A DNA stretch of 64,000 nt from an alpha proteobacterium U9-1i (GTDB taxonomy: Bacteria; Pseudomonadota; Alphaproteobacteria; Caulobacterales; Aquidulcibacteraceae), in the NCBI GenBank assembly GCA_000974665.1, contig BBSY01000004.1, positions 62,001 through 126,000 on the forward strand, written 5' to 3'. Under the pieces are notes generated by a model, which worked only from the letters and a program-made list of their open reading frames with translations, did no database searches and was not told the origin of the DNA. Of the stretch, positions 5,611 through 48,007 are shown piece after piece; the stretch's first letter is position 1; the number at the start of each line of letters is the position of its first letter. Made by a program: the position numbers and the translations under genes.

Positions 5611-5626
5611 TTGCACTATAGTGCAA
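5611..5626. promoter_or_regulatory. Operator site 1 (perfect palindrome)
   Basis: TTGCACTATAGTGCAA is a perfect 16-bp inverted repeat in an AT-rich 62-base gap between the stop of the CoA-transferase gene at 5645 and the ATG at 5582. It is the most symmetrical of ten related sites in the window (TTGCAY-N4-GTGCAA). It probably binds a dimeric regulator, such as a TetR-type protein, controlling the operon 5582-1. Confidence 0.75.
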
Positions 5627-5644
5627 TATTATGCCGACGCAAGC

Positions 5645-6886
5645 TCAGCGCGCCGACCTCTGCAGGATGGCGCCGGCCCCTTCGAGATCGGCAAGCTCGG
5701 CGCTTTCAAGCCCGAGCCAGTCGGCCAAACCTTCGAGCGTGTGTTCACCCAACAGCGGCGGCGGGCTTTCAAAGCGCGCCGGCGTTTCGCTGAGCTTGCC
5801 GGGATAGGCCACGGACGGAACTTTGACGCCATCGGTCCTGTCAAAATGATGGACAACCCCACGCGCCTCAATGAAGGGGTCGTTGAAAATCTGCTCAAGG
5901 TTGTTCACCGGCCCGCCAGGCACGCCATTAGCCGGAAGCTTGTCCTTCAGGTCGTCCATTGTGAACGCTTTCAGGATTTCGTTGAGCTTGGCCTCGAGCT
6001 GCGTGCGATTGATCACCCGGTTGGAATTGGTGGAATAGCGCGGATCGGTCGCGAGTTCGGGAACGCCAAGCACTTTGCAGAGCAAGACGAATTGGCGATC
6101 GTTACCGACCGCGATCACAAGCGGGCCAGTGCTCGTGTTGAAGACGCCATACGGCACGACTGTGGGGTGGAAATTGCCCATTCGCTTGGGAGGAACGCCG
6201 CTGACCAGATAGTTCAGCGCTTGATTGGCGAGCATGGAAATCTGCGTGTCGAGCAGCGAGCAATCGATGTACTGCCCCTGCCCCGTGCGTTCGGCGTGGC
6301 GCAGCGCCATGAGGATGCTCACGGTTGCGTACATGCCCGTGGAAACATCGGCGATGGCGACGCCAGGCTTCATAGGCTGGCCGTCGGGTTCGCCAGTGAT
6401 TGAGAGCATGCCGCCCATGGCTTGGGCGACGAAATCGTAGCCCGGACGATCCGCATACGGCCCGTCCTGACCGAAGCCGGTGATCGAGCAATAAATGAGG
6501 CGCGGATTGACGGCCTTCAGCCTTTCATAGTCGAGCCCGTAGCGCGTGAGGCCGCCGAGCTTGAAATTCTCGACCACGATATCGGCTTTCTCAGCCAGCT
6601 TGCGGATGAGCGCGGCGCCTTCCGGCGTGGCGATGTTGACGGCGATCGATCGCTTGTTTCGATTGCAGGAAAGGTAATAGGCGCTGCGGCCAGGGCCGGT
6701 TTCGCCAATTTCGGGCTCGAGGTTGGGCGGCCCCCAGGTGCGGGTGTCGTCTCCGCCCTTCGGTTCTTCGATCTTCAGCACGTCTGCGCCAAAGTCGGCG
6801 AGGATTTGCGTGCACCAAGGGCCGGCGAGCACGCGCGACAGATCCAATACCTTCACCCCTTCAAGCGCGCGGGCCTGGCGTGTCAC
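5645..6886 (-). CDS. CaiB/BaiF family III CoA-transferase
   Basis: Single-domain CoA-transferase of 413 residues. It has the signature LEGVKVLDLSRVLAGPWC and DFGADVLKIEEP, the catalytic-Asp segment VAIADVSTGMYATVSI, and YADRPGYDFVAQAMGG just before it. This is close to the succinyl-CoA- or formyl-CoA-dependent enzymes that activate dicarboxylic or hydroxy acids, though the acid used here is unknown. The start is GTG at 6886 with AAGGAG seven bases upstream. The gene follows the cofEDC operon after a 70-base gap holding operator site 2, so it probably has its own promoter. It is followed after 18 bases by operator site 1. Confidence 0.87.
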   Translation of the reverse strand: MTRQARALEGVKVLDLSRVLAGPWCTQILADFGADVLKIEEPKGGDDTRTWGPPNLEPEIGETGPGRSAYYLSCNRNKRSIAVNIATPEGAALIRKLAEKADIVVENFKLGGLTRYGLDYERLKAVNPRLIYCSITGFGQDGPYADRPGYDFVAQAMGGMLSITGEPDGQPMKPGVAIADVSTGMYATVSILMALRHAERTGQGQYIDCSLLDTQISMLANQALNYLVSGVPPKRMGNFHPTVVPYGVFNTSTGPLVIAVGNDRQFVLLCKVLGVPELATDPRYSTNSNRVINRTQLEAKLNEILKAFTMDDLKDKLPANGVPGGPVNNLEQIFNDPFIEARGVVHHFDRTDGVKVPSVAYPGKLSETPARFESPPPLLGEHTLEGLADWLGLESAELADLEGAGAILQRSAR

Positions 6887-6951
6887 GAATTTCTCCTTTG
6901 GCTTGCCGAGGGGCGACTGTCGCGTGGCGTCGTGCAGTCAAACAGCATTTT

Positions 6952-6967
6952 CTGCACTATAGGTCAA
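6952..6967. promoter_or_regulatory. Operator site 2, inside the end of cofC
   Basis: CTGCACTATAGGTCAA matches the shared motif; its left half is identical to site 1 (TGCACTATAG). It lies 65 bases before the GTG of the CoA-transferase at 6886. It overlaps the last codons and the TAG stop (6959-6957) of cofC, so regulatory and coding information share these bases. Confidence 0.65.
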
Positions 6968-7526
6968 TTTTTATACTGCGCGACGGAGTCCATCCGGCCG
7001 CCAGGGCGGCGTCGAGATCCTCCGTCGTGTCGATGTCCAAGCTTAGGCCTGGGCGCACGATTTCAATGGCGCCGCGGGCGTGGAGGCGGCGACTGTCAAC
7101 GCCAAAGGCGAAGTGGAACGGCTGCCCGTCGCTGAGCGCGATTGCATTGGTGCCGGCGCCGTGGCGATCAGCGGCTATGGCGACGCCAGTTTCGCTACCG
7201 GCTTCAAGGAGCGCCTCAATGTCGGCGGCCGCGACCAACGGCAGATCGCCATGGATGACAACCAATGCCCCAGCGATCTCAGAGCGCGCGGCGGCAAGCT
7301 CGGCATTCAGGCCGGCGCCTTCATCTTTGCGCCATTCAGCGCCTCCAAACGGCCGCGGCGCGAGCACGACCACGCGCGCGACGCTTGGCGCCTGCTTCAA
7401 GGCATCCAAGACGTGGGCGGCGATTTCATCCGCCAATGCTTCGCGCTGCTGCTGCGATAGGCGCGAAGCGAGCCGCGATTTGCGCTCGGGCCCGAGTTTG
7501 AGCGGAACGATCGCGGTCCAGCTCAT
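6957..7526 (-). CDS. cofC: Phospholactate/PEP guanylyltransferase of F420 synthesis
   Basis: CofC/FbiD family nucleotidyltransferase of 189 residues. It activates 2-phospholactate, phosphoenolpyruvate or 3-phosphoglycerate with GTP, giving the donor used by CofD. Visible family motifs are VPLKLGPERKSRLA at the N-terminus (GTP-binding loop with the conserved Lys), VIHGDLPLV, the DRHGAGTNAI segment and FGVDSRRLHA near the C-terminus. Which three-carbon phosphate it uses cannot be read from sequence. Its ATG overlaps the cofD stop by four bases, so the two are translationally coupled. The last codons contain operator site 2. Confidence 0.92.
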   Translation of the reverse strand: MSWTAIVPLKLGPERKSRLASRLSQQQREALADEIAAHVLDALKQAPSVARVVVLAPRPFGGAEWRKDEGAGLNAELAAARSEIAGALVVIHGDLPLVAAADIEALLEAGSETGVAIAADRHGAGTNAIALSDGQPFHFAFGVDSRRLHARGAIEIVRPGLSLDIDTTEDLDAALAAGWTPSRSIKIDL

Positions 7527-8440
7527 CTGAGTGTGCGTGCAAGGTCAAGGGCGGATCGGGCGACGCGAGCGCGATCTTCAAGTGTTGTCATCAAGGTGTT
7601 GGTTCGGGCCGTGGCGAGGCCGCTCGGCGCGTCGTCGCCCTCGTGGACAAGCAGGCCGTCAAGGAGATCGCCATAATGCGCGGCGATTGCGGAATTGGCG
7701 GTTGGAACCTTGAGTTCATCCATCAGCTTCGCCGTGGGGCCTTTGACCGCCTTGCCGCCAATGAGTGGCGACACGGCGACGATCGGCGCCTTAGCCTCTC
7801 GCAAGGCATCGGCGATTTCGCGAACCGCGAGGATCGGATCAACAGAGAGATAGGGGTTCGATGGTGCGATGAGGATCGCTTCGGCATTGGCAATGGCGTC
7901 GAGGACACCCGGCGCCGCCCGCGCCACGACGGCGCCCCGGAATTCGATCCGCGAAACTTTCGGAGCGCAGCGGCGCTCCACGAAATAGCGCTGAAACTCC
8001 AGCGCGCCTTCGTCCGTATCGAGCCAGGTGGCGATCGGATCATCGCTCATCGGCAGAACGTTCGCGCCAACACCCCACGATCGCGCGAAATCGGCTATAA
8101 TGCTGGATAACGGCTCATTTTTCGCGAGCCGCGCGCTGCGCAGAACGTGGAGCGCGAGATCGCCGTCGCCAAGCAGGAACCAGTCCTCGCCGCGCAATTC
8201 CTTGAGCGCGGCCATGAAGGTCCAGCTTTCACCCTCGCGGCCCCAACCCTGGGCTTTGTTCGCCTTGTCCGAGAGCGTGTACAATAGCGTATCTATGTCC
8301 GGCGAAACGCAGAGGCCCAAGTGACGAAAATCGTCACCGGTGTTGACGACAGCGGTTATATCGGGCGGCGGCATGATTTGCGTGAGGCCGCGCACGAGCT
8401 TGGCGCCGCCCACGCCGCCTGTGAGTACGACGACCTTCAT
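7523..8440 (-). CDS. cofD: 2-phospho-L-lactate transferase of F420 synthesis
   Basis: CofD/FbiA family protein of 305 residues, the family's normal length. It transfers the phospholactyl-type group from the CofC product to FO, giving F420-0 or dehydro-F420-0. It opens with VVVLTGGVGGAKLVRGL, followed by VVNTGDDFRHLGLCVSPDID and the LLGDGDLALHVLR segment, which are hallmark CofD motifs for FO and GDP binding. The middle gene of cofE-cofD-cofC, it overlaps each neighbour by four bases (ATGA-type). Confidence 0.95.
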   Translation of the reverse strand: MKVVVLTGGVGGAKLVRGLTQIMPPPDITAVVNTGDDFRHLGLCVSPDIDTLLYTLSDKANKAQGWGREGESWTFMAALKELRGEDWFLLGDGDLALHVLRSARLAKNEPLSSIIADFARSWGVGANVLPMSDDPIATWLDTDEGALEFQRYFVERRCAPKVSRIEFRGAVVARAAPGVLDAIANAEAILIAPSNPYLSVDPILAVREIADALREAKAPIVAVSPLIGGKAVKGPTAKLMDELKVPTANSAIAAHYGDLLDGLLVHEGDDAPSGLATARTNTLMTTLEDRARVARSALDLARTLR

Positions 8441-9186
8441 CGGAACAAATCCTCGTCCAGCACACGCACGAGCGACGTCGCGGGATTGGCCGCGCCCTTG
8501 AGGTCGAGCCCACGCACGAGCGCAGCCGGCACGCCTTCGGCGGCCTCCCCCATCGCGAGGCCGGCGGCGGAAGCGATGAGATCGGCATAGGCGATTTGCG
8601 TCACCTCAAGCTTGCGGCCCTGGCGGTCGGCTTCGCCGCGACGATCGTCGAGCGAGGGCAAGCCCCATGCGCCGATGCCGACATTCACGACGCCTTGGCG
8701 CCACGGGCGGCCGAAGCTGTCGGTGATGAGGATGGCGGGTGAGACGCCGAAGCGTGTGGCGAGATGCGACGCCAGGCCAGCGGCGGAGGCATCGGGATCC
8801 TCCGGCAACAGCAACACTGTATCGTCACGACCGGCGCCGACATTCGAGCGATCGATTCCCGCATTGGCCATAACCAGCCCGAGTTTGTGGCGCGTAATGA
8901 GGACGCCGCGCACGGCGCGCAGTACGTCGTTGGACTCGCGCAGCGCGAGTTCGACGAGGCGCGCGTCTTTGCCAGTTTTCTCAGCGAGCTCCAGCGCGCG
9001 GGCACCGGGCGCGATGTCGGATAGTTGGACGAAGCGGTTCTCGGCCTTGGACACGATCTTTTGCGTCACCGCCAGCACGTCCCCGGCGCGGGGCGCGTGG
9101 ACGGCGAGCGCATCGCCGAGGATCGCGGCGAGGTCGTCGCCCGGCGAAATTTCGCCAATGCCTTCAAGGGGGTGGATTTCGATCAT
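8437..9186 (-). CDS. cofE: F420-0:gamma-glutamyl ligase
   Basis: Stand-alone CofE domain of 249 residues. It adds gamma-linked glutamates to F420-0 with GTP. Motifs seen are LAVTQKIVSKAE, ANAGIDRSN and LITDSFGRPWRQG, all characteristic of CofE. It lacks the C-terminal nitroreductase-like FMN domain found in the actinobacterial FbiB fusion, so dehydro-F420 reduction, if needed, must be done by another protein. It is the first gene of the leftward cofEDC operon, 61 bases downstream of operator site 3, and diverges from the CoA-transferase at 9332. Confidence 0.94.
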   Translation of the reverse strand: MIEIHPLEGIGEISPGDDLAAILGDALAVHAPRAGDVLAVTQKIVSKAENRFVQLSDIAPGARALELAEKTGKDARLVELALRESNDVLRAVRGVLITRHKLGLVMANAGIDRSNVGAGRDDTVLLLPEDPDASAAGLASHLATRFGVSPAILITDSFGRPWRQGVVNVGIGAWGLPSLDDRRGEADRQGRKLEVTQIAYADLIASAAGLAMGEAAEGVPAALVRGLDLKGAANPATSLVRVLDEDLFR

Positions 9187-9247
9187 GGCGTTCGCTGCAG
9201 CGTCACTAACATAGCTTTGGCGCGCGCGCGCAAATTTGCCGATAATT

Positions 9248-9263
9248 TTGCATCATCGTGCAT
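9248..9263. promoter_or_regulatory. Operator site 3 between cofE and CoA-transferase
   Basis: TTGCATCATCGTGCAT lies in the 145-base divergent gap, 61 bases from the cofE ATG and 68 from the ATG at 9332. It is flanked by TTT and TTTT runs like the other sites. Its position suggests it controls both F420 synthesis and the divergent CoA-transferase gene. Confidence 0.7.
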
Positions 9264-9331
9264 TTTTTGATTGCGCGTCCGTGACGCGGGCAGGCAAGAT
9301 AAGGTTCAAAAGGCGACCGGGAGTATTCGCG

Positions 9332-10573
9332 ATGTTCGATCTGCTGAAAGGCGTGCGAGTGCTGGAGTTCGGCATTCTGCTGAACGGCGATCATCTCGGC
9401 ATGCTGATGAGCGATCTGGGCGCCGAAGTGATCAAGGTCGAAGAGCCGGGCTCAGGCGACTATCTGCGCGATATGCTTGGGCAGATCACGCCGCACCACA
9501 GCCCGGCGCATCTTCAGGTGAACAAGAACAAGAAGAGCGTAACGATCAATGTACGCACCGAAGCCGGGCGACATGCCTTCTTCGAACTGCTGAAGACGGT
9601 CGACATTTTCGCCGACGGCCTGCGCGGCGGCGCGTGCGAAGCGATGGGCATCGGCTACGAAGCACAACGCGCCGTGAAGCCGGACATCATCTACATGGCC
9701 AATACGGGTTTTGGCATGACCGGCCCTTATTCGCGGCTCGGCGCGCATGGCTATTCGATGTTGGCGATCGTCGGCGGCCTGCCGGCGGCCAAGGACGAGA
9801 ATGGCTTTGTCGATCGCGCGCAGAGCAAGGATGTGCTCGGTGGCGTGAAGGGTGGCGCGGGCGCACCGTTTGCGGTGATGGCCGGGCTTGCGGCGTTGCT
9901 GCGCCGACAGCGCACGGGGCAAGGCGCATTCATCGACGTCGCCGCTTCGGACGCGAACCTTGCTGCTTCTTGGTCTGCCGCCGTGACGAACCTCAACTAC
10001 GACAGGATTGTTGACCTCACCGGCCTTTCGCCGCGCGGCGAGCCGAACGATGGCTGGCCGGCCGGCTCGGTTCTGTATGCGCTCTACGAGGCGAAAGACG
10101 GGCGCAACATCATGTTCTGCGCCATCGAGCCAAAGTTTTGGTACAATTTCTGCGACGTCGTCGAGCGCCCCGATCTCCGCGACAAGATTCGCACCGACAT
10201 TCCCGTGGATTACGGCATCGACAAGCAATGGCTACGGCCGGTGTTAGCCGACATTATCAGGTCGAAGACGTCATCTGAATGGATGGAGTTGGCGCTCACG
10301 AAGAACGTGCCGCTGGCTGTCGCCAACACGCTCGATCAAACGCCGGACGATCCGCACAACAAGGCGCGCGGCATGATCTATGAGGGCTCACACCCAGGCG
10401 CGGGACCATTCACCTACCTGCGTTATCCGGCGATCATCGACGGCCAACGCAGCAACGTGGAGATCCCCGCACCTGCGCTTGGCGAACACACGGACGAGGT
10501 GCTCGCCAGTATCGGATTGAGCAAAGCCGAAATCGCCGCCGCGCAGGAAATCACGCGCGCCAAGAAAAAGTGA
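9332..10573 (+). CDS. CaiB/BaiF family III CoA-transferase
   Basis: CoA-transferase of 413 residues. The frame extends upstream, but ATG 9332 with GGGAG eight bases before it gives the normal N-terminus MFDLLKGVRVLEFGILLNGD, followed by SDLGAEVIKVEEPG. A DVLGG segment lies near the expected catalytic Asp region, but the spacing to the following helix differs from the gene at 5645, so the catalytic residue should be confirmed by alignment. It is transcribed away from cofE from the shared gap holding operator site 3 and converges on the thiolase gene, seven bases away. Substrate unknown. Confidence 0.84.
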   Translation: MFDLLKGVRVLEFGILLNGDHLGMLMSDLGAEVIKVEEPGSGDYLRDMLGQITPHHSPAHLQVNKNKKSVTINVRTEAGRHAFFELLKTVDIFADGLRGGACEAMGIGYEAQRAVKPDIIYMANTGFGMTGPYSRLGAHGYSMLAIVGGLPAAKDENGFVDRAQSKDVLGGVKGGAGAPFAVMAGLAALLRRQRTGQGAFIDVAASDANLAASWSAAVTNLNYDRIVDLTGLSPRGEPNDGWPAGSVLYALYEAKDGRNIMFCAIEPKFWYNFCDVVERPDLRDKIRTDIPVDYGIDKQWLRPVLADIIRSKTSSEWMELALTKNVPLAVANTLDQTPDDPHNKARGMIYEGSHPGAGPFTYLRYPAIIDGQRSNVEIPAPALGEHTDEVLASIGLSKAEIAAAQEITRAKKK

Positions 10574-10580: not shown

Positions 10581-11780
10581 TTAGCTCGCGCGCTCAAACA
10601 CCGCTGCGAGGCCCTGCCCGCCGCCTATGCACATCGTCTCCAGACCGTAGCGGCCATTGCGACGCACCAGTTCGCGCGTGAGGTTAGCGAGAATGCGCCC
10701 ACCGGTGGCGCCGATTGGGTGACCGAGAGAAATGCCGGAGCCATTGACGTTGAGCTTGTCGCGGTCGTCCCAGTTCCAAGCCCTGAGCACGGCGAGCACT
10801 TGCGGCGCGAAGGCTTCGTTGAGTTCAACCAAGTCGATGTCCTTCCAGCCGAGGCCGGTGCGCTTGAATAAGCGCTCTACCGCGGGCGCGGGGCCGATGC
10901 CCATCCGCGACGGCTCGCAACCAGCCGCGGCCCAAGAATGGAAATAAGCGATAGGCTCGAGGTTCAGCTCTTTCAGCTTGTCTTCGCCGACGACGAAGCA
11001 GGCTGCGGCAGCGTCGTTCTGCTGACTGGCGTTGCCCGCAGTGACGACGCCTCCCTTCTCCAGCGCTTTCAGTGCGCCGAGCGATTGCATCGTCGCGTCC
11101 GGACGGAAGCCTTCGTCCTTTGCGAACAGCACCGGATCGCCTTTGCGCTGCGGCACCGGCACCGGCACGAGTTCATCGTTGAACTTGCCTTCAGCCCAAG
11201 CATTGGTGGCGCGCTTGTGGCTCATCACAGCGTATTCATCGCAGGCTTCGCGCGAGATGCTGTAATCCTTGGCGAGGTTTTCCGCCGTTTCGATCATGCC
11301 GCTGATCACGCCGAACCTCGAAATTGGCTGCGACATCACGCGTCCCCGAGTCAGGCGGTCATGCATAGTTGAAGACCCCGAACGCGCGCCCGAGCGCATG
11401 TCCGTCGAGTAGTATTCAACATTGCTCATGCTCTCGACGCCGCCCGCGAGCACGACGTCCGCCGCGCCGGTTTGCACCATCATGGCGGCGTCGATGATCG
11501 CCTGCAGGCCGCTACCGCAGCGCCGATCGAGCTGATAGCCGGGAACCGAAATGGGGAGGTCAGCGGCGAGCGCCGACCAACGCGCGATGCAGGGCGCTTC
11601 GCCATTGCCGTAGCCCTGCGCAAACACGACGTCATCGATACGCTCAGCGTCGATCTTGGTGCGCTCGACCAGAGCGCGGATGATCACCGCGCCGAGATCG
11701 CCAGCCTGCATGCCCGCGAGCGAACCTTGAAACTTGCCGACGGCGGTCCGGAGGGGGCTAACGATGGCTGCTCTGCGCAT
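10581..11780 (-). CDS. Thiolase (acetyl-CoA C-acyltransferase)
   Basis: Thiolase of 399 residues with the full catalytic set: nucleophile Cys88 in LDRRCGSGLQAI, NEAFAPQ, His in GHPIGATGGR, and the second Cys in CIGGGQGLA. It cleaves 3-ketoacyl-CoA with CoA to release acetyl-CoA or propionyl-CoA, closing a beta-oxidation round. ATG with GGAG upstream, nine bases after the acyl-CoA dehydrogenase stop at 11790, so it is co-transcribed with it. Chain-length preference cannot be read from the sequence. Confidence 0.9.
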   Translation of the reverse strand: MRRAAIVSPLRTAVGKFQGSLAGMQAGDLGAVIIRALVERTKIDAERIDDVVFAQGYGNGEAPCIARWSALAADLPISVPGYQLDRRCGSGLQAIIDAAMMVQTGAADVVLAGGVESMSNVEYYSTDMRSGARSGSSTMHDRLTRGRVMSQPISRFGVISGMIETAENLAKDYSISREACDEYAVMSHKRATNAWAEGKFNDELVPVPVPQRKGDPVLFAKDEGFRPDATMQSLGALKALEKGGVVTAGNASQQNDAAAACFVVGEDKLKELNLEPIAYFHSWAAAGCEPSRMGIGPAPAVERLFKRTGLGWKDIDLVELNEAFAPQVLAVLRAWNWDDRDKLNVNGSGISLGHPIGATGGRILANLTRELVRRNGRYGLETMCIGGGQGLAAVFERAS

Positions 11781-11789
11781 TTCTGCTCC

Positions 11790-12935
11790 TTAGCTGGCGC
11801 CGCGCATCATCTCGCGGGCGATAATGATCTGCTGAATCTGAGATGTGCCCTCATAAATCCGCAGCAAGCGAACGTCACGGTAGAATCTCTCAACCTTGTA
11901 TTCAGCCATGTAGCCGGCCCCGCCGTGAATTTGTACGGCGCGATCAGCGACGCGCCCCACCGCTTCGCTGGCAAAATATTTGAGCGCGGCAGCGTCAAGG
12001 CTGACGGGCTCGCCGCGATCGAACTTCGCCGCCACCGAATTCAGCAACGCCTCCGTGGCGAGCGCGTCGGTTTTGCTGTCGGCGAGCATGGCCTGAACCA
12101 GCTGGAAGCTCGAAATGACTTGCCCGAATTGTTTGCGTTCCATCGCATAACGCAGACTCATGTCGATCAGGCGGTCACACATGCCGAGCGCAACCGCGGC
12201 GATGTGGATGCGGCCGCGATCGAGCACTTTCATGGCGGTTGTGAAGCCGCGACCTGGCTCGCCGCCGATGATGGCGCTTGCCGGTACACGGCAGTTTTCG
12301 AGGATTACGTCGGTGGTGACGGCGCCCCTCTGGCCCATTTTTTTATCAGGCTTCCCGAAGCTGATGCCGGGCGTGTTCGCCGGCACGATGAAGGAGGAGA
12401 TGCCTTTCGCGCCTTTCACGCCAGGTTCGGTGCGCGCCATGAGCGTGAACACGCTCGCGCGCGGCGCGTTGGTGATGTAGCGCTTGGTGCCGTTGATCAC
12501 ATAGTGATCGCCGTCGAGCGTCGCTGTCGTGCGCAATGAGGCGGCGTCGGAGCCCGCCTCCGGTTCTGTGAGACCGAATGACGAGATAGCCTCCCCCGTC
12601 GCGAACTTTGGCAACCACTCGCGCTTCTGCGCTTCTGTGCCGTCCATCACGATGCCTTGGGAGCCGATGCCAACCGTGGTGCCGATGACGGAGCGAAACA
12701 CCACTGAAGCGCGCGTGAGTTCGCGAATGATGGCCGCTTCTTCGGACATCGTGAGGCCGAGGCCGTCATATTCTTCCGGGATGGAGAGACCAAACAGACC
12801 AAGCTCTCGCATTTCGTCGATGATCTCGGCGGGCACGGCATCATCGGCCTCGATGCGGTCTTCAGCCGGGATGAGGCGCTGATCAACGAAGCGGCGCACC
12901 GTTGTGCGCAGCATTTCAAATGTGTCTTGATCCAT
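11790..12935 (-). CDS. Acyl-CoA dehydrogenase
   Basis: FAD-dependent acyl-CoA dehydrogenase of 381 residues, introducing a 2,3-double bond. Signatures are FGLTEPEAGSDAASLRT, the INGTKRYITNA strand, the RKQFGQVISSFQ helix and the C-terminal IHGGAGYMAEYKVERFYRD with YEGTSQIQ. The last provides the usual catalytic Glu in YEGT. Translation is taken from ATG 12935, which has GGGGAGG nine bases upstream; a longer frame to 13007 would run through operator site 4. It is the first gene of a two-gene operon with the thiolase. Confidence 0.9.
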   Translation of the reverse strand: MDQDTFEMLRTTVRRFVDQRLIPAEDRIEADDAVPAEIIDEMRELGLFGLSIPEEYDGLGLTMSEEAAIIRELTRASVVFRSVIGTTVGIGSQGIVMDGTEAQKREWLPKFATGEAISSFGLTEPEAGSDAASLRTTATLDGDHYVINGTKRYITNAPRASVFTLMARTEPGVKGAKGISSFIVPANTPGISFGKPDKKMGQRGAVTTDVILENCRVPASAIIGGEPGRGFTTAMKVLDRGRIHIAAVALGMCDRLIDMSLRYAMERKQFGQVISSFQLVQAMLADSKTDALATEALLNSVAAKFDRGEPVSLDAAALKYFASEAVGRVADRAVQIHGGAGYMAEYKVERFYRDVRLLRIYEGTSQIQQIIIAREMMRGAS

Positions 12936-12998
12936 GGGCGCATGCCTCCCCGTTTGCCCTCGTTTTAGCGGGCCAGTGCGACAAGTCCACAGCAGATT

Positions 12999-13014
12999 TT
13001 GCACCAACGTGCAT
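12999..13014. promoter_or_regulatory. Operator site 4
   Basis: TTGCACCAACGTGCAT, with TTT before and TTTT after, sits 63 bases before the acyl-CoA dehydrogenase ATG (12935) and just beyond the stop of the CoA-transferase at 13020. Half-sites TTGCAC/GTGCAT are nearly symmetrical. It probably drives the dehydrogenase-thiolase operon. Confidence 0.7.
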
Positions 13015-13019
13015 TTTTA

Positions 13020-14234
13020 TTATGCGGCCACGCCGTCGTCGCGCAGCTTGCCGATGGCCTCTGCGGTTAGACCCAAGACCTCAGCCAGAATTTCATCGGT
13101 ATGCTGGCCAAGCTTCGGCGCGGGCGCCACTGCGCCTCGCGCTGCGCCCTGCACGGCGCCGGCAGGGCCAGACGCTGGGTAGCGCAGGCCGCTCGGATGC
13201 TCAATGGATTGAAAGATCGGGTTGGCGGTGAACAAGCGCGCGTCACTAAACACGGCTTGATGCAGCGTCTGATACTTAGACCAGGTCACGCCCGCAGCGT
13301 CGAACGCTGGGCCAAGGTCGCTCAACGTCCCTTTGGCGATCACGGCTTCGAACAGCGCGAAGAGGCGCTCTCGGTGCCGGAAGCGCAGACCTTCGTCGCG
13401 TGCGAACGAAACGCCGAGCTCACGCTCCAGCACAGCGACGGCATCGCCGAGCTCTAGGGCACGCAAAGCGCCAATCCATTGCCGCGAGGAGATCGCCACG
13501 AGCATCACGCGTTCGCCGTCAGCGGTCGTGAAGTCGCGGCCGAAGGCGCCATAAAGATCGCTGCCCATGCGCGGGCGATCATCGTCGGCGACCATGACCT
13601 CAGCGACCGCGCCGACGTGACTGAGATTCGACGCCACGAGATCGGAAAGCGGTACGCGAATTTCGCAACCCTGTCCGCTCTCACGCCGAGCGCTTAGCGC
13701 CGCCATCAGCGCAAACGCCGCATAGGCGCCGCCAATGAGATCCCACGCGGGAAGAACGTGATTGGTGGGGCGATCATCGTCGGGAAAGCCGGTCGCGAAG
13801 GGCAAGCCGGACGCCGCGTTGACGGTATAATCCACCGCAGGCGCGCCATCGGCCCAGCCCATAATGCGGACGCTGATGATGTCATCGCGGCGGGACTTGA
13901 GGTTGTCGTAGGACAGGAAGCCTCTGACCGGATAATTCGTCACGAACAACCCTGCATTCTCGCCGGGCGCCGTTGCGATCGCGACGGCCAGCTCGCGGCC
14001 CTTCGCCGAGCTAAGATCAAGTGCGACGGACTTCTTGCCCTTGTTGAGTCCCTCCCAGTAAAGGCTGGCGCCGCTGCCCGGGGCGAGCGGCCATCTGCGG
14101 AAGTCCGGCCCGCCGCCTATATTGTCGAAGCGGATCACCTCCGCGCCCATTTGCGCAAAATGTAAACCGCACGATGGGCCGGCGATAAACGCGGCGCCTT
14201 CCACAACACGCAGACCCTTGAGCAGATCGTACAT
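13020..14234 (-). CDS. 2-methylfumaryl-CoA isomerase-like CoA-transferase
   Basis: CaiB/BaiF protein of 404 residues whose opening segment (LLKGLRVVEGAAFIAGPSCG, then QMGAEVIRFDNIGGGPDFRR and WEGLNKGKKSVALDL) recalls the mesaconyl-CoA C1-C4 CoA-transferase (Mct) branch from memory of that family. The later HVLPAWDLIGGAYAAFALM holds the catalytic Asp. Mct moves CoA within one molecule between two carboxylates; here it may act on a related branched dicarboxylate. It is the last of four leftward genes (17606 down to 13020) with gaps of 9 to 24 bases, so co-transcription is likely. The real substrate is not known. Confidence 0.78.
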   Translation of the reverse strand: MYDLLKGLRVVEGAAFIAGPSCGLHFAQMGAEVIRFDNIGGGPDFRRWPLAPGSGASLYWEGLNKGKKSVALDLSSAKGRELAVAIATAPGENAGLFVTNYPVRGFLSYDNLKSRRDDIISVRIMGWADGAPAVDYTVNAASGLPFATGFPDDDRPTNHVLPAWDLIGGAYAAFALMAALSARRESGQGCEIRVPLSDLVASNLSHVGAVAEVMVADDDRPRMGSDLYGAFGRDFTTADGERVMLVAISSRQWIGALRALELGDAVAVLERELGVSFARDEGLRFRHRERLFALFEAVIAKGTLSDLGPAFDAAGVTWSKYQTLHQAVFSDARLFTANPIFQSIEHPSGLRYPASGPAGAVQGAARGAVAPAPKLGQHTDEILAEVLGLTAEAIGKLRDDGVAA

Positions 14235-14246
14235 GATCGCTCCGTT

Positions 14247-15251: not shown

Positions 15252-15260
15252 TTCGTGTCC

Positions 15261-16397: not shown

Positions 16398-16421
16398 GTC
16401 CCCTCTCCCGCGTCTGTAATG

Positions 16422-17606: not shown

Positions 17607-17677
17607 TACGCCTCCCTCCCCTTATGGGACGCTTCTTGGGCGCCTGCGCGCCGGGCTGGGGTGGCGACACTTGAAAT

Positions 17678-17693
17678 TTGCATCGCCGGATAT
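17678..17693. promoter_or_regulatory. Operator site 5 (weaker match)
   Basis: TTGCATCGCCGGATAT, followed by a run of T, keeps the strong left half (TTTGCAT) and the central G of the motif; the right half is degenerate. It lies in the 240-base divergent gap, 71 bases from the dehydrogenase ATG (17606) and 153 bases before the TetR start (17847). Nothing else is recognisable in this gap. Confidence 0.5.
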
Positions 17694-17846
17694 TTTTTGG
17701 CACACTTCTCTCCGGTCGGCAAGGCGGCCGCGACAGCGCATTTTGGAACGTCCAGACGCGACTCGCGGCAGGTTGACGGACCGCGGTTGGCCAACCGAAG
17801 CGGGCCGACTACGCTGAGCCGTGTCGCAACGAGGAGCGCTCACATC

Positions 17847-19368: not shown

Positions 19369-19385
19369 AGCGAAAGGCGCGTCAC

Positions 19386-35423: not shown

Positions 35424-35438
35424 TTTTTTCTCCGCAGA

Positions 35439-36173: not shown

Positions 36174-36176
36174 TCG

Positions 36177-37196: not shown

Positions 37197-37261
37197 TTAG
37201 CCCTCCTCCCTTATGTCTTTCGCCGATAATGGAGTTGACGAACGTGCTTGGCAATGGAATT

Positions 37262-37277
37262 TTGCACCATAGGTTAG
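37262..37277. promoter_or_regulatory. Operator site 8 between APH operon and fbiC
   Basis: TTGCACCATAGGTTAG, in the sequence ATTTTGCACCATAGG, lies 65 bases before the APH start (37196) and only seven bases before the fbiC ATG (37285). The position on the fbiC side would cover the ribosome-binding zone, so either the site overlaps a near-leaderless promoter or it acts mainly on the APH side. Confidence 0.68.
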
Positions 37278-37284
37278 ATTTTTG

Positions 37285-39663: not shown

Positions 39664-40337
39664 GCACCCAAACTCGCCCCACGATCGCCGTCATCGGCGG
39701 CGCCGGCAAGGAAGGCAGCGGCCTCGCTTTGCGCTGGGCCCATGTGGGGTATCCGATCATCATAGGCAGCCGCGACGCCGCGCGCGCCAGCGAAGCCGCT
39801 GCCGAAATTAACGCCGCATTGGGACGAGACGCGGCGCGGGGCGCAGACAATTTGGCCGCCGCTCAAAGCGCTGACATCGTGGTGCTTACGGTGCCGTTCT
39901 CGGCGCAACGCGCGACGGTTGAAGGCGTGCGCGAGGCGTTGTCAGGAAAAATCCTGATCGACGTGACAGTGCCGCTCGTCCCGCCGAAGGTCAGTCGCGT
40001 GCAATTGCCGGAGGGTGGTTCCGCCGTCGAAGCAATTCAAAAGCTCCTCGGCGCGGATGTGCGCGTCGTCTCGGCGTTTCAAAACATTTCGGCGCATCAC
40101 TTGAAGGATCTCGACCACACGATCGATTGTGACGTTTTGGTTTGCGCCGACGACAAAGCCACCGGCGACCTCGTCGTCGGCATGGCCAAGGAGATAGGGC
40201 TCGGCGCCTGGAATGCCGGCGTGCTGGCGAACTCGGTCGTTTCCGAGGCGCTTACCTCAGTGCTTATCGCTTTAAACCAGCGCTACAAGGCGCCCGGCTC
40301 CGGCATCCGCATTACCGGTCTGCCGAAGCAGGATTAG
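39660..40337 (+). CDS. npdG: F420:NADPH oxidoreductase
   Basis: NpdG/Fno family protein of 225 residues that passes hydride between NADPH and F420. Motifs are IAVIGGAGKEGSGLALRWA (NADP-binding), IIGSRDAARA, LTVPFSAQRATVE and VVSAFQNISAHHL. It overlaps the stop of fbiC by four bases, so synthesis of the cofactor and its reduction are co-expressed. The gene converges with the MFS gene at 40334, the two stops overlapping by four bases. Confidence 0.92.
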   Translation: MSTQTRPTIAVIGGAGKEGSGLALRWAHVGYPIIIGSRDAARASEAAAEINAALGRDAARGADNLAAAQSADIVVLTVPFSAQRATVEGVREALSGKILIDVTVPLVPPKVSRVQLPEGGSAVEAIQKLLGADVRVVSAFQNISAHHLKDLDHTIDCDVLVCADDKATGDLVVGMAKEIGLGAWNAGVLANSVVSEALTSVLIALNQRYKAPGSGIRITGLPKQD

Positions 40338-43133: not shown

Positions 43134-43200
43134 CCGCTTCCTCCTGTTCGCAACCGCGTCTGGCGCACAGTTTCGTTCGAAATTCGTATAGCAGTCATTT

Positions 43201-43216
43201 TTGCATTCAAGTATAA
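43201..43216. promoter_or_regulatory. Operator site 9 with overlapping TATAAT
   Basis: TTGCATTCAAGTATAA, followed by TTTT, lies in the 152-base gap between the P450 (43133, 67 bases away) and the TonB receptor (43286, 69 bases away). The sequence contains TATAAT at 43212-43217, so the site overlaps a likely -10 element for the receptor direction. Confidence 0.55.
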
Positions 43217-43285
43217 TTTTCAGCGAGATCCACCCAAGCGACGAGCCGCGCTGACGTGACCCCGCTCACGCCCTAGAGTGCCCCC

Positions 43286-45262
43286 ATGGACTTCCAGTCA
43301 GATCCGGAAATCGTCGTCACCGCACCGCGACTGCCCGAGGCGCCGGGGCAATTGGCGTTTTCTAGCTTGCCGATCGATGAGGCGGAGCTCACCGAAGCTA
43401 TCCGCATCGATGACGCGCTGCGCTCGACGCCAGGCGTCTCGCTGTTCCGGCGCAACGACAGCGCGGCGGCCAACCCGACCATCCAGGGCCTGTCTCTGCG
43501 CGCCTCCGCGCCATCGGGCGCCGGCCGCACACTCGTACTTCTCGACGGGCAGCCCCTCAACGATCCGTTCGGCGGTTGGGTGATCTGGGGTGCGATCCCG
43601 CCTGACACGTTGGGGCGCGCCGAGATCGTGCGCGGGGCCGGCGCCGGGCCTTACGGCGCAGGCGCGTTGCTCGGTGTCGTGCGCTTGGACGAACGCGACA
43701 CCGATGGCGTGGTGTTCTCTGGCGAAGGCGGCGATCTGGGGCATTGGCGCGCTTCGGCCTTTGGCGCGGCAAGCGGCGGCGGTGCATCGTTGATGCTGGC
43801 GGCGCAGGCTCAACATGAAGATGGCTGGCTCCCCGTGCGCGCGCGGCGCGGCGCGGCCGATGAAGCGGTTTGGTTCGACGGGGCCTCCGCGGTCGCACGG
43901 CTTGGCCTGCGCGGTGACGACCTCGCGTTCTCAGCCCGCATCGGTGCGTACGAAGAAGAACGCGGCGCCGGCCTCGTGGGTGCGCAATCCCGCAACACCG
44001 GACAAAGCGTCAGCTTTGCGCTGGCGCGCCCCAATGGGCCGCTGGCGTGGCGCGTTCAAACTTGGGCCGCGTGGTCCAATCTCGCAAACAGTTCGGTCGC
44101 CACGGCGCCGGATCGAAGCGCCACGACGCCGGCAAACAACCAGTATCGTACACCCGCCTTGGGTTGGGGGCTGAACGCCGCCTTGCGATGGACTGGCGAT
44201 GCAAGCGGCGTTGAGGTTGGGGCAGACGTGCGCGGCAATGACGGCGAAACGCGCGAGTTGTTCCGTTTCCAAGGCGGCGGCTTCACGCGCTCACGCATTG
44301 CCGGCGGCGAAATGCTCACCTCAGGTGCGTACGCTGAAGGTTGGCGCGAAACCGGCGCATATCTCGTCTCCGGCGGCGTGCGACTCGATCAATGGCGCGC
44401 ATTTGGCGGCGCGCGCCTGGAGCGTGACACCGCCAACAACGCAATTGTCCTCGGCGCAACCCCGGAGGACAACGACGTGCTCGCGCCGACAGCACGTCTG
44501 GGCGTGCGGCGCGGGCTAGATGGCGGCCTCTATCTCCGCGGCGCGGCGTATGCTGGCTTCCGTCCGCCAACGCTGAACGAATTGCATCGCCCCTTCCGCG
44601 TCGGCAACGACATCACCGAGGCGAACCCCGGCCTTGATCCTGAACGCCTCACCGGAATTGACGCGGCGGTTGGCGGCGAACGCTGGAGTATTGGCGTTTT
44701 CGCAACACGCGTCGAAGGCGCCATCGTCAACGTCACGCTCGGCGCCGGACCTGGCACGTTTTTCGCTGCTGAGTTGCCGCCTGGCATTTTCGTGCCGGCA
44801 GGCGGCGCGTTTCGGCAGCGGCGGAATGCGGGCGGCATCGACGCTTATGGCGTCGAAGCGGAGGCGCACGGCGATCTGCGAGACCTGCTGCGATGGCGCG
44901 CCGCGCTCAACTACACGGACGCGGCGATGCAAGGTGGGGCGCTCGACGGGCTGAGACCTGCGCAATCCCCGGAATGGAGCGCAACCGCAGGGCTCGCTTG
45001 GGAGGCGCCCACGGGCACAACATTTTCGGCGGACATATCGTACGAAAGCGCGCGCTTTGAAGACGATCTCAACTCACGCGAACTGGCCCCGGCCACAACG
45101 GTCGACCTGCGCGTTGATCAACGCCTGACGCAAGAGCTCTCGATTTACGCGGCGTTTGACAACGTCACCGACGAAGCCGTGGAAACCGCGGAGACGGCGG
45201 ATGGCGTCGAAAGTTTTGGGCCTCCGCGCGCCTTCCGCGTTGGCGTACGGCTTTCGCGCTAG
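43286..45262 (+). CDS. TonB-dependent receptor lacking an evident signal peptide
   Basis: Receptor of 658 residues with a TonB box at once after the start (PEIVVTAPR, residues 7-15), plug motifs (TIQGLSLRASAPSGAGR, VLLDGQPLNDPFGGWVIWG, IVRGAGAGPYGAGALLG) and a full barrel ending VGVRLSR. The start ATG 43286 is preceded by an in-frame TAG at 43274-43276, so no upstream signal sequence can be gained without a frame change. A receptor needs Sec export, so the signal is truncated, is supplied by an unrecognised start, or a small upstream frameshift has occurred. Its stop overlaps that of the convergent P450 by four bases. Confidence 0.85.
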   Translation: MDFQSDPEIVVTAPRLPEAPGQLAFSSLPIDEAELTEAIRIDDALRSTPGVSLFRRNDSAAANPTIQGLSLRASAPSGAGRTLVLLDGQPLNDPFGGWVIWGAIPPDTLGRAEIVRGAGAGPYGAGALLGVVRLDERDTDGVVFSGEGGDLGHWRASAFGAASGGGASLMLAAQAQHEDGWLPVRARRGAADEAVWFDGASAVARLGLRGDDLAFSARIGAYEEERGAGLVGAQSRNTGQSVSFALARPNGPLAWRVQTWAAWSNLANSSVATAPDRSATTPANNQYRTPALGWGLNAALRWTGDASGVEVGADVRGNDGETRELFRFQGGGFTRSRIAGGEMLTSGAYAEGWRETGAYLVSGGVRLDQWRAFGGARLERDTANNAIVLGATPEDNDVLAPTARLGVRRGLDGGLYLRGAAYAGFRPPTLNELHRPFRVGNDITEANPGLDPERLTGIDAAVGGERWSIGVFATRVEGAIVNVTLGAGPGTFFAAELPPGIFVPAGGAFRQRRNAGGIDAYGVEAEAHGDLRDLLRWRAALNYTDAAMQGGALDGLRPAQSPEWSATAGLAWEAPTGTTFSADISYESARFEDDLNSRELAPATTVDLRVDQRLTQELSIYAAFDNVTDEAVETAETADGVESFGPPRAFRVGVRLSR

Positions 45263-46461
45263 GACCAGTCCAGCACCAGATCCTTGATGCCGAACACGAA
45301 GCCACCGAACGCCACTGGTGCGGTGCCCTCCTTGATGCGGAAGTTCGGAATGCGCGCCAGCCATTCCTCCAAGCCGATGATAATTTCGCGACGCGCCAAG
45401 TGCGAACCGAGGCAGCGGTGGGGGCCGTAGGCGAACGCAGTATGGCGATTGTTTTCGCGCGCGAGGTCGATCTTGTCCGGATCGGGAAATTCTTGCGGAT
45501 CGCGATTTGCCATCATGCTTGGGCATGAAATGAGATCGCCCTTTCGGATGTTGGCGCCTTCAAACTCGACGTCGCGCGTGGCCACGCGCACCATCTGCAC
45601 GGTTGAGAACGCACGCAGCATTTCCTCGATCGCTGCCGGGATGCGTGCGGGTTCGCGGCGCAGCAAATCCTGGTCCGAGGGGTTTTCCGCGAGATAGCGC
45701 AGGTCAAATCCAAGCGCTGCCGCGACTGTGTCCAGACCTGCGACGAGCGTTAAGACGCCGACACCGCGCACCTCTTGATCCGTCAGTCTGCGGCCATCAA
45801 TTTCGCGCTCGACGATGAAGGTCATGAAGTCGTCCGTGGGTTCGCGGCGGCGAAGTTCGGCGAGTTCATCCATGAAACCGAGAATTTTGCGGGCCGCCCA
45901 CGTGCGCTGCTCCGGCGTGCCATGAAGCAGATTGTTGGCCCAGTCTACAAACTCTTCGAGCCGATCGTCCGGCAAGCCGATGAAGCGCAGGAAGATGTTC
46001 ACGGCGAACGGAAACGCGAAGTCCGTCATCACCTCGCAGGACGTTCCTCGCGCCTTGATTTTCTCGATCAGCATCACCGCGCGTTCACGCACGATATGCT
46101 CCATCTGCGTTACACGCTTCGGCGAGAACAGAGGCAGCAGAACCTGACGAAAGTTCGTGTGTTGCGGCGGGTCCAGTTCAAGCGGAATAAGCGGCCAGTC
46201 TTCGCCCAGCGCGGTCGTGAAGATACGTCGGAAGCTGGAGAAGGTGTCGGTATCCTGCAGGAGCCGACGTTGATCATCAGCACGCGTGACGATCCACGTG
46301 CCAAGGCCTTCGCGCGTGTTGGCGGCGGAGTAGAAAACGCGTTGCCCCTGAGCGTGCACGCAACTCACCGCCAAATGCGGATCGCCGTTCGGCGTGGGCG
46401 TCATGCCGGGGGACGTGAAAAGGCTGAAATCGCCAGTTGGAACCCTAGCTTCTCCGCTCAT
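45259..46461 (-). CDS. Cytochrome P450 monooxygenase, copy 2
   Basis: P450 of 400 residues, a paralogue of the one at 41919. Heme loop FAYGPHRCLGSHLARRE, I-helix LVAGLDTVAAALGF, and the common tail FGIKDLVLDWS. ATG 46461 overlaps the stop of the aldehyde dehydrogenase gene (ATGA), which favours this start over the upstream in-frame one. It has no ferredoxin gene beside it, so it probably shares the donor at 41711. An aldehyde dehydrogenase just upstream suggests oxidation of an alcohol or methyl group to acid in the same route (inference). Confidence 0.88.
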   Translation of the reverse strand: MSGEARVPTGDFSLFTSPGMTPTPNGDPHLAVSCVHAQGQRVFYSAANTREGLGTWIVTRADDQRRLLQDTDTFSSFRRIFTTALGEDWPLIPLELDPPQHTNFRQVLLPLFSPKRVTQMEHIVRERAVMLIEKIKARGTSCEVMTDFAFPFAVNIFLRFIGLPDDRLEEFVDWANNLLHGTPEQRTWAARKILGFMDELAELRRREPTDDFMTFIVEREIDGRRLTDQEVRGVGVLTLVAGLDTVAAALGFDLRYLAENPSDQDLLRREPARIPAAIEEMLRAFSTVQMVRVATRDVEFEGANIRKGDLISCPSMMANRDPQEFPDPDKIDLARENNRHTAFAYGPHRCLGSHLARREIIIGLEEWLARIPNFRIKEGTAPVAFGGFVFGIKDLVLDWS

Positions 46462-47933
46462 TGCGCCGTCCTTATCCAAACGCCTTTGGTGTTGAGGTAT
46501 GACTCAATGTGCTCAACGCCGCCTTCGCGGCCATAACCGCTCATCTTGTAGCCGCCGAACGGCACGTTCGGGTCCATCGCCTGATAATGGTTCACCCAGA
46601 CCGATCCGGTACGCAGGCGTTTGGCGGCGGCATGCGCTTTGGTGATGTCGCGCGTCCATACACCGCTGGCGAGGCCGAATTGCGTGTCGTTGGCGCGGTC
46701 GATCACCTCTTCAAAGCTGTCAAACGGCAGCACACACACGACGGGGCCGAAAATTTCCTCGCGTGCAATGCGCATATGATCCTGCACATCAGCAAAGATC
46801 GTTGGCGGCACGAAGTAACCCTTGGCGAAGTCTCCCTCGGTGAGCCGCTTGCCGCCAGAGACGGCGCGCGCGCCTTCGGCGGGGCCAACGTCGAGATAGG
46901 AAGACACGCGACTCAACTGCTTTTCGGAGACCAACGGGCCGAGTTGCGTCTCGGGATTGATGCTGTTGCCGACGCGCAGCGTTTTACTGAATGCGGCCAA
47001 GCGCTCGACGAACTCGTCGTGGATTTTGCGCTCAACGAAGAGCCGCGTTCCCGCACTGCAGACTTGACCCGAATTGTTGAACACGCCCATGGCCGAACCT
47101 GGCACGGCGAGATCGAGGTCCGCGTCGGCGAAGACGATGTTGGGACTTTTGCCGCCAAGCTCGAGCGTCACCTTCTTCACGGTGCGCGCTGAGGCTTCAA
47201 TGATCCGTTGGCCAGTCTCGCAAGAGCCCGTGAACGTGATTTTGTCGACGTCAGGATGAGATGAGAGTGCAGCGCCGGCGGCGCCCATGCCGGTGACGAC
47301 GTTGACAACACCTGGCGGCACGCCGGCCTCAAGGCAAAGCTCCCCGAAGCGCAGCGGCGTCAACGATCCATCCTCGGCGGGCTTCAACACCACAGTACAG
47401 CCCGTCGCCAAAGCCGGGCCGGCTTTCCATTGCGCGCTGAACAATGGCCCGTTCCAAGGAATGATGGCCCCGACGACGCCGACCGGTTCTTTGAGCGTGT
47501 AGGACAGCAGTTCAACCGGAAACGAATTGCTCAGCGTCGAGCCGTGGATCGCGGTTGCGGCGCCGGCGAAGTGCCGGAGCGAGCGTACGATCATGCCTTT
47601 GAGCAGGCGGGACGTGGTGATGGGACGGCCCATCTCCAGCGTGTCCATCAAGGCAAGTTCCTCGAACTCACGCTCGACCAAGTCGGCAAGCTTCAAGAGG
47701 ACCGCTTGACGCTCCGCCGGCTTGAACGTGCTCCAGGGGCCGTTGAACGCCTTGCGCGCGGCGGCAACGGCGCGATCGATGTCGGCCGCCTCACCGAAGG
47801 CAAGGTGAGCGATCACTTCTCCCGTTGACGGGTTGATGGTTGGAAAGGTTTTTCCGGACAAAGCCTCGACGTGCTCGCCGTCGATCAGCAGGCGCTTGGT
47901 GCTTACCGCAAGTGGACGGGCGCCATCTGCCAC
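46458..47933 (-). CDS. NAD(P)-dependent aldehyde dehydrogenase
   Basis: Aldehyde dehydrogenase of 491 residues. Catalytic Cys is in NNSGQVCSAGTR, the general base Glu in VTLELGGKSPNIVF, and the coenzyme loop TFTGSCETGQ is present, along with IIPWNGPLFSAQWK. It oxidises aldehydes to acids. GTG start at 47933; the stop overlaps the P450 ATG. Operator site 10 is 58 bases upstream in the divergent gap with the EthD gene. Confidence 0.92.
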   Translation of the reverse strand: MADGARPLAVSTKRLLIDGEHVEALSGKTFPTINPSTGEVIAHLAFGEAADIDRAVAAARKAFNGPWSTFKPAERQAVLLKLADLVEREFEELALMDTLEMGRPITTSRLLKGMIVRSLRHFAGAATAIHGSTLSNSFPVELLSYTLKEPVGVVGAIIPWNGPLFSAQWKAGPALATGCTVVLKPAEDGSLTPLRFGELCLEAGVPPGVVNVVTGMGAAGAALSSHPDVDKITFTGSCETGQRIIEASARTVKKVTLELGGKSPNIVFADADLDLAVPGSAMGVFNNSGQVCSAGTRLFVERKIHDEFVERLAAFSKTLRVGNSINPETQLGPLVSEKQLSRVSSYLDVGPAEGARAVSGGKRLTEGDFAKGYFVPPTIFADVQDHMRIAREEIFGPVVCVLPFDSFEEVIDRANDTQFGLASGVWTRDITKAHAAAKRLRTGSVWVNHYQAMDPNVPFGGYKMSGYGREGGVEHIESYLNTKGVWIRTAQ

Positions 47934-47991
47934 GGTTGGCCTCTCACAATCTGAGCGCCTACTCCAGGCGCGGGCGGGACGATTTCACATT

Positions 47992-48007
47992 TTGCACAGC
48001 GGTGCAA
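47992..48007. promoter_or_regulatory. Operator site 10
   Basis: TTGCACAGCGGTGCAA is a near-perfect 16-bp palindrome (TTGCAC/GTGCAA halves, central AGCG) preceded by ATT. It is 58 bases from the aldehyde dehydrogenase start and 33 bases from the EthD ATG at 48041, between divergent genes. It is the rightmost copy, at the island edge. Confidence 0.75.

Follow-up and report, generated by a model that had tools for sequence, protein, structure and literature searches.

Gene content of the cluster

The analyzed stretch (hereafter the window) comprises 64 kb of the 188-kb contig BBSY01000004.1 from the 4.05-Mb genome of the alphaproteobacterium U9-1i (probably of the genus Terricaulis), and contains a 49-kb cluster of operons (positions 135 to 49431) whose promoter regions carry copies of one palindromic motif. 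This motif is very likely the operator of a TetR-family regulator encoded within the cluster, predicted to govern the genes of a degradation pathway and those for synthesis of F420, a rare redox cofactor, together. Pfam and NCBIfam searches bear out the gene families listed in the initial annotation, namely F420 synthesis, five CoA-transferase genes, acyl-CoA dehydrogenases, cytochromes P450 and an operon with a TonB receptor, quinoproteins and a sulfatase. There are four acyl-CoA dehydrogenases, two P450s, two pyrroloquinoline quinone (PQQ) alcohol dehydrogenases, two TonB receptors, a sulfatase accompanied by an FGE-like protein, and five CoA-transferase III genes, one of them with two matched stretches (Table 1). 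The F420 pathway is complete: FbiC (CofGH), CofC, CofD and CofE score above equivalog cutoffs, and an F420 reductase is also encoded. CofE passes TIGR01916 and fails NF009809 and NF009810.

Motif copies in the promoter regions

All ten sites proposed in the initial annotation (5611, 6952, 9248, 12999, 17678, 31160, 31195, 37262, 43201 and 47992) are present, the strong half of 31195 being on the minus strand. The motif, first written as TTGCAY-N4-G-T-x-x-A, is indeed a palindrome, and the operator is longer: AWTTTGCAY-N4-RTGCAAAWT. In this extended form, which adds AT arms and a degenerate second half, the motif is informative and gives a strong signal. Seven sites lie at a similar distance from a minus-strand start codon, measured as 59-72 bases rather than the 58-71 first given: 66 bases for 6952 and 37262, 62 for 9248, 64 for 12999 (ATG at 12935), 72 for 17678, 68 for 43201 and 59 for 47992. 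For 5611 and 31160 the distances to the start codon are 29 and 105 bases. The ten sites fall in nine promoter regions, and nine of them are wholly intergenic; the tenth, 6952, extends into the 3' end of cofC. With three start codons corrected beforehand, the intergenic share of the cluster amounts to 1706 of 49297 bases (3.5%), and among 11 gaps of at least 40 bases two (28483-28583 and 41675-41918) have no site.

The short form of the motif, TTGCAYNNNNRTGCAA with up to two mismatches, shows no enrichment within the window: eight matches were found against 9.03 expected, and 73 of 100 shuffles gave at least eight. Genome-wide, TTTGCAYNNNNRTGCAA with up to two mismatches is mildly more frequent than its reversed control (171 vs. 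130). Since it showed no enrichment, the short motif was set aside as evidence; being no commoner than in shuffled sequence, it made other tests of the claim necessary. The sole perfect copy of TTTGCAYNNNNRTGCAA in the genome outside the cluster (G000:C3:1188062-1188078, locus L001) lies directly before an open reading frame (ORF) of 335 aa.

A position weight matrix was built from other genera. Among GTDB contigs, 22 loci (L052-L073) carry relatives of the TetR at 50-77% identity; L052 belongs to G202, the second Terricaulis genome, which is an 89%-complete metagenome-assembled genome (MAG). The training set comprised 20 of these loci (L053-L073 minus L071), and 27 sites from 19 of them, all non-Terricaulis, entered the matrix, their choice being guided by the consensus first seen in the window. 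Upon scanning the contig with this matrix, the seven best matches were 9248, 12999, 5611, 17678, 37262, 43201 and 47992, all in gaps of the cluster, while none of 300 column-permuted palindromic matrices reached seven (maximum six). In first-order Markov sequence the best matrix score averages 14.9 and reaches 21.2, so the single scores of 17678, 37262, 43201 and 47992 (14.6-17.7) are unremarkable, and it is the number and position of the matches that count. The earlier observation that no site lies to the right of 48007 is in practice true. The sole window match scoring above 10 there, at 59063 (score 12.0), stands alone in the gap upstream of a response-regulator/GGDEF-EAL gene.

An unguided dyad count on the tetR flanks of the 20 loci placed TGCAA-N6-TTGCA first (17 of 20), which by sequence is the strong half plus the neighboring TTGC element. 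The operator dyads TGCAC-N4-GTGCA and TTGCA-N6-TGCAA were each found in 10 of the 20 loci; the largest count in 20 shuffles was five, a control that ignores the kinship of the loci.

Conservation of the motif in relatives

The motif is conserved beyond strain U9-1i. In G202, seven promoters carry sites, preceding the orthologues of ECH4, CaiB5, CaiB9, ACAD11, ACAD15, APH and tetR; the sites 43201, 47992 and 31160/31195 are without a syntenic counterpart there. In other genera it lies beside the orthologous tetR gene. When three mismatches are allowed, the pattern WTTTGCAYNNNNRTGCAAAW is found in 21 of the 22 loci L052-L073, the exception being L071, whose contig ends within tetR. With up to two mismatches it occurs in 11 of these 22 loci and in none of the 12 loci L074-L085, which harbor TetR relatives at 30-46% identity. 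Genome G180, whose TetR is distant (34% identity), shows no site with up to three mismatches in 100 kb of sequence.

The extended pattern WWTYTGCAYNNNRGNNNAWWWW, with at most one mismatch, has 19 matches in the window genome (11 at the ten sites, eight outside the cluster), a number that proves nothing alone, the pattern having been made from the same sites. G202 has 18 matches, eight at seven places in the cluster and 10 elsewhere. The 28 genomes of the genus without the TetR, some of them incomplete, have 1-7 each and 99 in total. Thirteen further genomes with the TetR have 6-59 matches vs. 0-4 for the reversed pattern, except the AT-rich G408 (59 vs. 27); the lowest counts are those of Chol11 (7 vs. 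0) and the small MAG G407 (6 vs. 1). Eight extended-pattern matches lie on contig C2.

These comparisons bear on the possibility that the sites are merely AT-rich promoter sequences, alike by chance or composition. The lack of enrichment of the short motif in the window agrees with it, but the permuted matrices, the genomes without the TetR and the recurrence of sites at corresponding promoters of other genomes make it extremely improbable.

In six loci, matrix matches are paired 75-76 bases apart, about seven helical turns, before a PQQ dehydrogenase gene (Table 1). This spacing suggests putative cooperative binding.

The TetR-family protein as the predicted regulator

The protein encoded at 17847-18578 has a TetR_N helix-turn-helix domain (PF00440, 3.4e-11, 43.2 bits vs. 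a cutoff of 24). A palindromic site (17675-17696) is present in the divergent gap at its own gene, as it is at tetR in G202 and several sphingomonads. Relatives of this TetR occur in three of the 398 genomes by which the order was sampled (U9-1i, G202 and, at 34% identity, G180) and in two of 30 genomes of the genus (U9-1i and G202); the titles of L052-L073 name Sphingobium, Novosphingobium, Sphingomonas, Sandaracinobacteroides and Emcibacter, among others. In the alignment, the recognition region reads VAKRTLYNA in 24 of 24 proteins (the window TetR P0001, L052-L073 and L075) and VAQRTLY in 11 of 11 (L074, L076-L085). In these sequences the presence of the motif tracks the recognition region of the TetR. 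The sites, their recurrence in relatives and their co-occurrence with the TetR gene are established at the level of sequence, and the proposal of this TetR as the regulator is supported by the motif beside its orthologues, the G202 sites and the match of the recognition region.

In sphingomonads a second TetR-family gene, TetR-X, is located between the APH operator and fbiC (L139:706-1425 and L145:731-1447, both on the plus strand); in the majority of genomes with TetR-X, this gene immediately precedes fbiC. Binding of the sites by another regulator is improbable, be it PhaR/AniA or TetR-X, whose gene comes first in the sphingomonad F420 operon. In both loci that were read, TetR-X does adjoin the APH operator, and it has a match in 15 of 18 genomes searched, but it is missing from both Terricaulis genomes and the match in G405 is weak, all three genomes being rich in sites. 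PhaR is probably a general regulator of alphaproteobacteria, in which case the lack of an excess of sites in 28 genomes speaks against it. The PhaR motif is likewise palindromic, containing YGCR elements and AT arms, but in that of S. meliloti the YGCR elements are much closer together (PMC12542648). The TetR at 17847 is most likely the regulator, because the motif tracks its recognition region and the rival TetR-X is missing from both Terricaulis genomes.

Several points weigh against this assignment, in addition to the limits given above for the matrix training sites, the dyad shuffles and the extended pattern. By matrix alone three sites are weak (31160 at rank 9, 6952 at rank 14 and 31195 at rank 15). 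Eight of the 19 extended matches in the window genome and 10 of the 18 in G202 are outside the cluster, Chol11 has the TetR yet only seven matches genome-wide, and the G202 orthologue of the EthD gene has no site in the stretch read. The pattern WTTTGCAYNNNNRTGCAAAW is also found in four of the 12 loci L074-L085 with up to three mismatches and in four of 45 distant TetR loci (L086-L130) with up to two. Finally, the APH operator lies upstream of the -35 element, at +15.5/16.5 in 12 of 14 rows, which is unusual for a repressor.

Linkage of F420 synthesis to the predicted regulator

The sole FbiC match (at a threshold of E 1e-60) and the sole CofD match (at E 1e-20) of the window genome both lie in the cluster, and because of this F420 is probably made on demand for the pathway of the cluster. 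F420 genes were searched for in 23 genomes with the TetR, namely those of U9-1i and G202 and the genomes of 21 loci (L071 omitted; L075, at 46%, included). FbiC and CofD are present in 22 of the 23, and in 15 of these 22 fbiC and tetR are on one contig. G202 is the only exception, with no FbiC, CofD or luciferase-like (LLM) oxidoreductase match at the thresholds used. Four of the 28 genomes of the genus without the TetR have FbiC, and their FbiC loci contain no matrix match above 9.5. Sixteen loci outside the window have the APH gene by F420 or thiolase genes, and 13 of them have a matrix match above 10 in the gap. The common order is APH, operator, TetR-X, fbiC and the F420 reductase gene (FNO), followed by cofE-cofD-cofC or thiolase, with more sites often preceding thiolase. 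Genome G398 (Sphingobium sp. 15-1, locus L055) has five FbiC-like matches, one of them near tetR.

The region G202:C5:395001-495000 (L042-L046) contains the same core cluster without the F420 genes or the LLM gene. Comparison with the window gave the first idea that the F420 genes had been inserted into an older regulon. This was rejected: loss in G202 is simpler, because in sphingomonads the F420 genes are flanked by the APH operator and thiolase, and G202 has the order APH, operator, thiolase. As the G202 assembly is incomplete, a gap in it may also account for their absence.

A close LLM orthologue is found in 18 of the 23 genomes. It is missing from G202, which is without F420 genes, and from G407, G408, G410 and G417, which have FbiC, so that the phyletic evidence on F420 use by this protein is mixed. 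A role of the LLM as sole user of F420 is not supported, since the latter four genomes have no LLM match at E 1e-30, although two of them, G407 and G417, are small (about 2 Mb).

It is about an even prospect that in Terricaulis, sphingomonads and Emcibacter F420 is an inducible rather than a housekeeping cofactor, a single TetR coupling its reduction and entire synthesis to one degradation pathway, with regulator, pathway and cofactor genes kept together throughout these groups. If the inducing substrate is found, the F420-using step would likely lie within the regulon, giving a handle on the use of F420 in these bacteria.

Promoter layout and proposed mechanism

Promoter fits used sigma-70 frequencies without a shuffled control, at most 14 rows per gene being listed. 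In a set of 64 sequences, duplicates sharing the same 50-base core were removed, and a site between two genes may count twice. In the promoter fits, the operator overlies the -10 element at ECH4 in the window and G202, at TonB1 in the window, and in seven rows of PQQ-dehydrogenase genes, where TTGACA lies 24.5 bases upstream of the operator center. Seven sphingomonad rows have it over the -35 element of tetR, unlike the two Terricaulis genomes. The idea that every promoter has its -35 element at a fixed position was rejected, since this is found in groups (APH, ECH4, part of PQQ1 and part of tetR) and not across all 121 gene-oriented rows. The inclusion of the sulfatase operon (31160/31195) in the regulon rests on weaker sites and on a layout like that of the sphingomonad PQQ-dehydrogenase promoters.

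The same TetR and operator could act mainly in activation, or in activation at upstream sites and repression elsewhere, which we regard as rather unlikely. Such a role would suit the APH operator, whose center is 15-16 bases upstream of a TTGCMA-N17-CATTAT promoter from Terricaulis to sphingomonads, and the CTTGC box recurring behind the sites before ECH17, although in the listed rows the promoter fit chose no such box save a related one in L060. TetR-family proteins are, however, mostly repressors; the operators at ECH4, TonB1, several PQQ1 rows and seven tetR rows are on -10 or -35, and the APH site also adjoins a possible divergent TTGACG-N17-AATTTT promoter, seen by eye, which faces fbiC. 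Its position upstream of -35 may thus mean that the TetR activates some promoters, or that it represses a divergent promoter overlapping the site.

With repression as the favored mode, we infer binding, repression and an acyl-CoA inducer as follows. A dimer of the TetR would bind AWTTTGCAY-N4-RTGCAAAWT at the ten sites, spread over nine promoter regions, and would most likely keep the cluster repressed. It would be released by an intermediate of the pathway, probably an acyl-CoA, upon which the catabolic enzymes, the uptake genes and fbiC, cofC, cofD, cofE and FNO would be induced jointly. Repression with release by acyl-CoA is favored because of the analogy with MftR, as far as the accessible text on that protein goes (PMC8728441).

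Relation to known systems

KstR and other acyl-CoA-responsive TetR regulators have many operators and control acyl-CoA catabolic genes; the KstR operator differs from the one described here. The window TetR shows weak N-terminal likeness to KstR (NCBIfam and PDB), its score of 35.8 bits with the KstR equivalog NF033703 being far below the 280 needed. MftR of Mycobacterium smegmatis is, according to the accessible part of its description, likewise a TetR repressor of a redox-cofactor cluster, with a palindromic operator and release by long-chain acyl-CoA, but its cofactor is mycofactocin, its operator is T-N2-GGCA-N5-TGCC-N2-A, and it acts on the cofactor cluster, whereas the window TetR would cover cofactor genes and a degradation pathway (PMC8728441). 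FadP, PsrA and LiuQ, also of the TetR family, have regulons defined by comparative genomics that consist of operons for acyl-CoA or branched-chain degradation; the accessible descriptions of these regulons contain no F420 genes (PMC5343134).

Searches of open-licence papers for F420 and sphingomonads, TetR/operator/regulon, fbiC regulation, Terricaulis and CaiB TetR regulons found none whose title or abstract describes this regulon, and no paper on the regulation of F420 synthesis in proteobacteria. A term search of the accessible main text of an F420 review gave neither "sphingo" nor "regulation of F420" (PMC8498797). Among the matches listed for the motif strings there were only unrelated fields. 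TetR-controlled catabolic regulons are a known kind, and the coupling to F420 supply appears to be undescribed in the literature searched. A candidate regulator, a predicted operator and many sites are now given, with orthologues in named Sphingobium strains, among them Sphingobium scionense DSM 19371 (L058).

Table 1. Predicted operators, genes and operons of the cluster, and paired sites at other loci.
Feature	Coordinates	Strand	Evidence and remarks
Operator, ECH/CoA-transferase/LLM operon (135-5582, minus)	5608..5629	.	Also at G202 orthologue; TTGCGT-N16-TATAGT, operator on -10
Operator, CoA-transferase 5645-6886	6949..6970	.	0 mismatches to extended pattern; matrix rank 14; G202 site before same gene
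Operator, cofE (minus)/CoA-transferase 9332-10573 (plus) gap	9245..9266	.	Top matrix score in 188 kb, 30.35
Operator, acyl-CoA dehydrogenase 11790-12935	12996..13017	.	Second matrix score 29.66; G202 orthologue site 18.74
Operator, acyl-CoA dehydrogenase 16422-17606/tetR gap	17675..17696	.	Same 22-mer before G202 acyl-CoA dehydrogenase orthologue (ACAD15)
Operator, TonB-PQQ-sulfatase operon	31157..31178	.	On -10; contig rank 9; TTGACA-N17 at -24.5 offset
Second upstream site, TonB operon	31192..31213	.	Strong half on minus strand; 1 mismatch to extended pattern; matrix rank 15
Operator, APH-like kinase operon (minus)/fbiC-FNO (plus) gap	37259..37280	.	APH gap site in G202 and 13/16 other APH loci
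Operator, P450 (minus)/TonB receptor (plus) gap	43198..43219	.	Matrix scan, sequence comparison
Operator, aldehyde dehydrogenase-P450 operon (minus)/EthD-alcohol dehydrogenase (plus) gap	47989..48010	.	Matrix scan, sequence comparison
TetR-family regulator, proposed	17847..18578	+	Pfam TetR_N; orthologues adjoin motif
Luciferase-like (LLM) oxidoreductase, F420 or FMN user	135..1208	-	PF00296
CoA-transferase III fusion (798 aa), CoA-transferase III, enoyl-CoA hydratase	1147..5582	-	Pfam/NCBIfam
CoA-transferase III	5645..6886	-	
cofC	6957..7526	-	TIGR03552 above cutoff
cofD	7523..8440	-	TIGR01819 above cutoff
cofE	8437..9186	-	TIGR01916 above cutoff
CoA-transferase III	9332..10573	+	Start codon from reassessment
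Thiolase, acyl-CoA dehydrogenase, CoA-transferase III, alcohol dehydrogenase, two acyl-CoA dehydrogenases	10581..17606	-	
Enoyl-CoA hydratase and flavin reductase, 3' of tetR	18586..20018	+	
TonB receptor, two PQQ alcohol dehydrogenases, sulfatase, FGE-like protein, SGL protein	20019..31055	-	
AMP-binding enzyme, MFS, acyl-CoA dehydrogenase, SDR, APH-like kinase	31261..37196	-	
fbiC (CofG-CofH fusion)	37333..39663	+	NF006687 above cutoff; ORF opens 37282, start uncertain
NADPH-dependent F420 reductase (FNO/NpdG)	39660..40337	+	TIGR01915 above cutoff
P450	41919..43133	-	Nearest solved relatives CYP101D/P450cam
TonB-dependent receptor	43286..45262	+	
P450 and aldehyde dehydrogenase	45259..47933	-	
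EthD-domain protein and zinc-type alcohol dehydrogenase	48041..49431	+	
Paired sites	L056 7672/7747, L058 7585/7661, L059 7679/7754		
Paired sites	L061 7569/7644, L063 7633/7709, L066 7438/7514		

Catabolic genes and possible substrate

The APH-SDR-acyl-CoA dehydrogenase trio, encoded with an AMP-binding enzyme, presumably resembles the 4-hydroxyacyl-CoA handling of LvaA or ACAD11. Among solved structures, CYP101D and P450cam chains lead the matches of the first P450 (2e-67). No LLM model, whether FMN or F420, reaches its cutoff with the LLM protein, whose closest relatives of known structure are PuwE and the alpha chains of alkanal monooxygenase. The accessible text on cyclic-compound oxidation in SAR202 lists likewise FMN/F420 luciferase-like enzymes, CaiB/BaiF CoA-transferases, SDRs and a P450, but these belong to Chloroflexi and are presented as enzyme families with no regulon claim (PMC5395668). 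Because of the CYP101D/P450cam-like P450 and an LLM/CoA-transferase/SDR set that recalls SAR202, our guess for the substrate would be a terpenoid-like or alicyclic compound. Degradation of bile salts or steroids, considered from the Chol11 match, was rejected: the Chol11 locus shares only tetR and FNO of the window genes, and its sites are few. A term search of the accessible text of two Chol11 papers gave nothing on this regulator (PMC12175502, PMC8540908). For one of the PQQ alcohol dehydrogenases, the nearest solved chain is a type II quinohemoprotein alcohol dehydrogenase.

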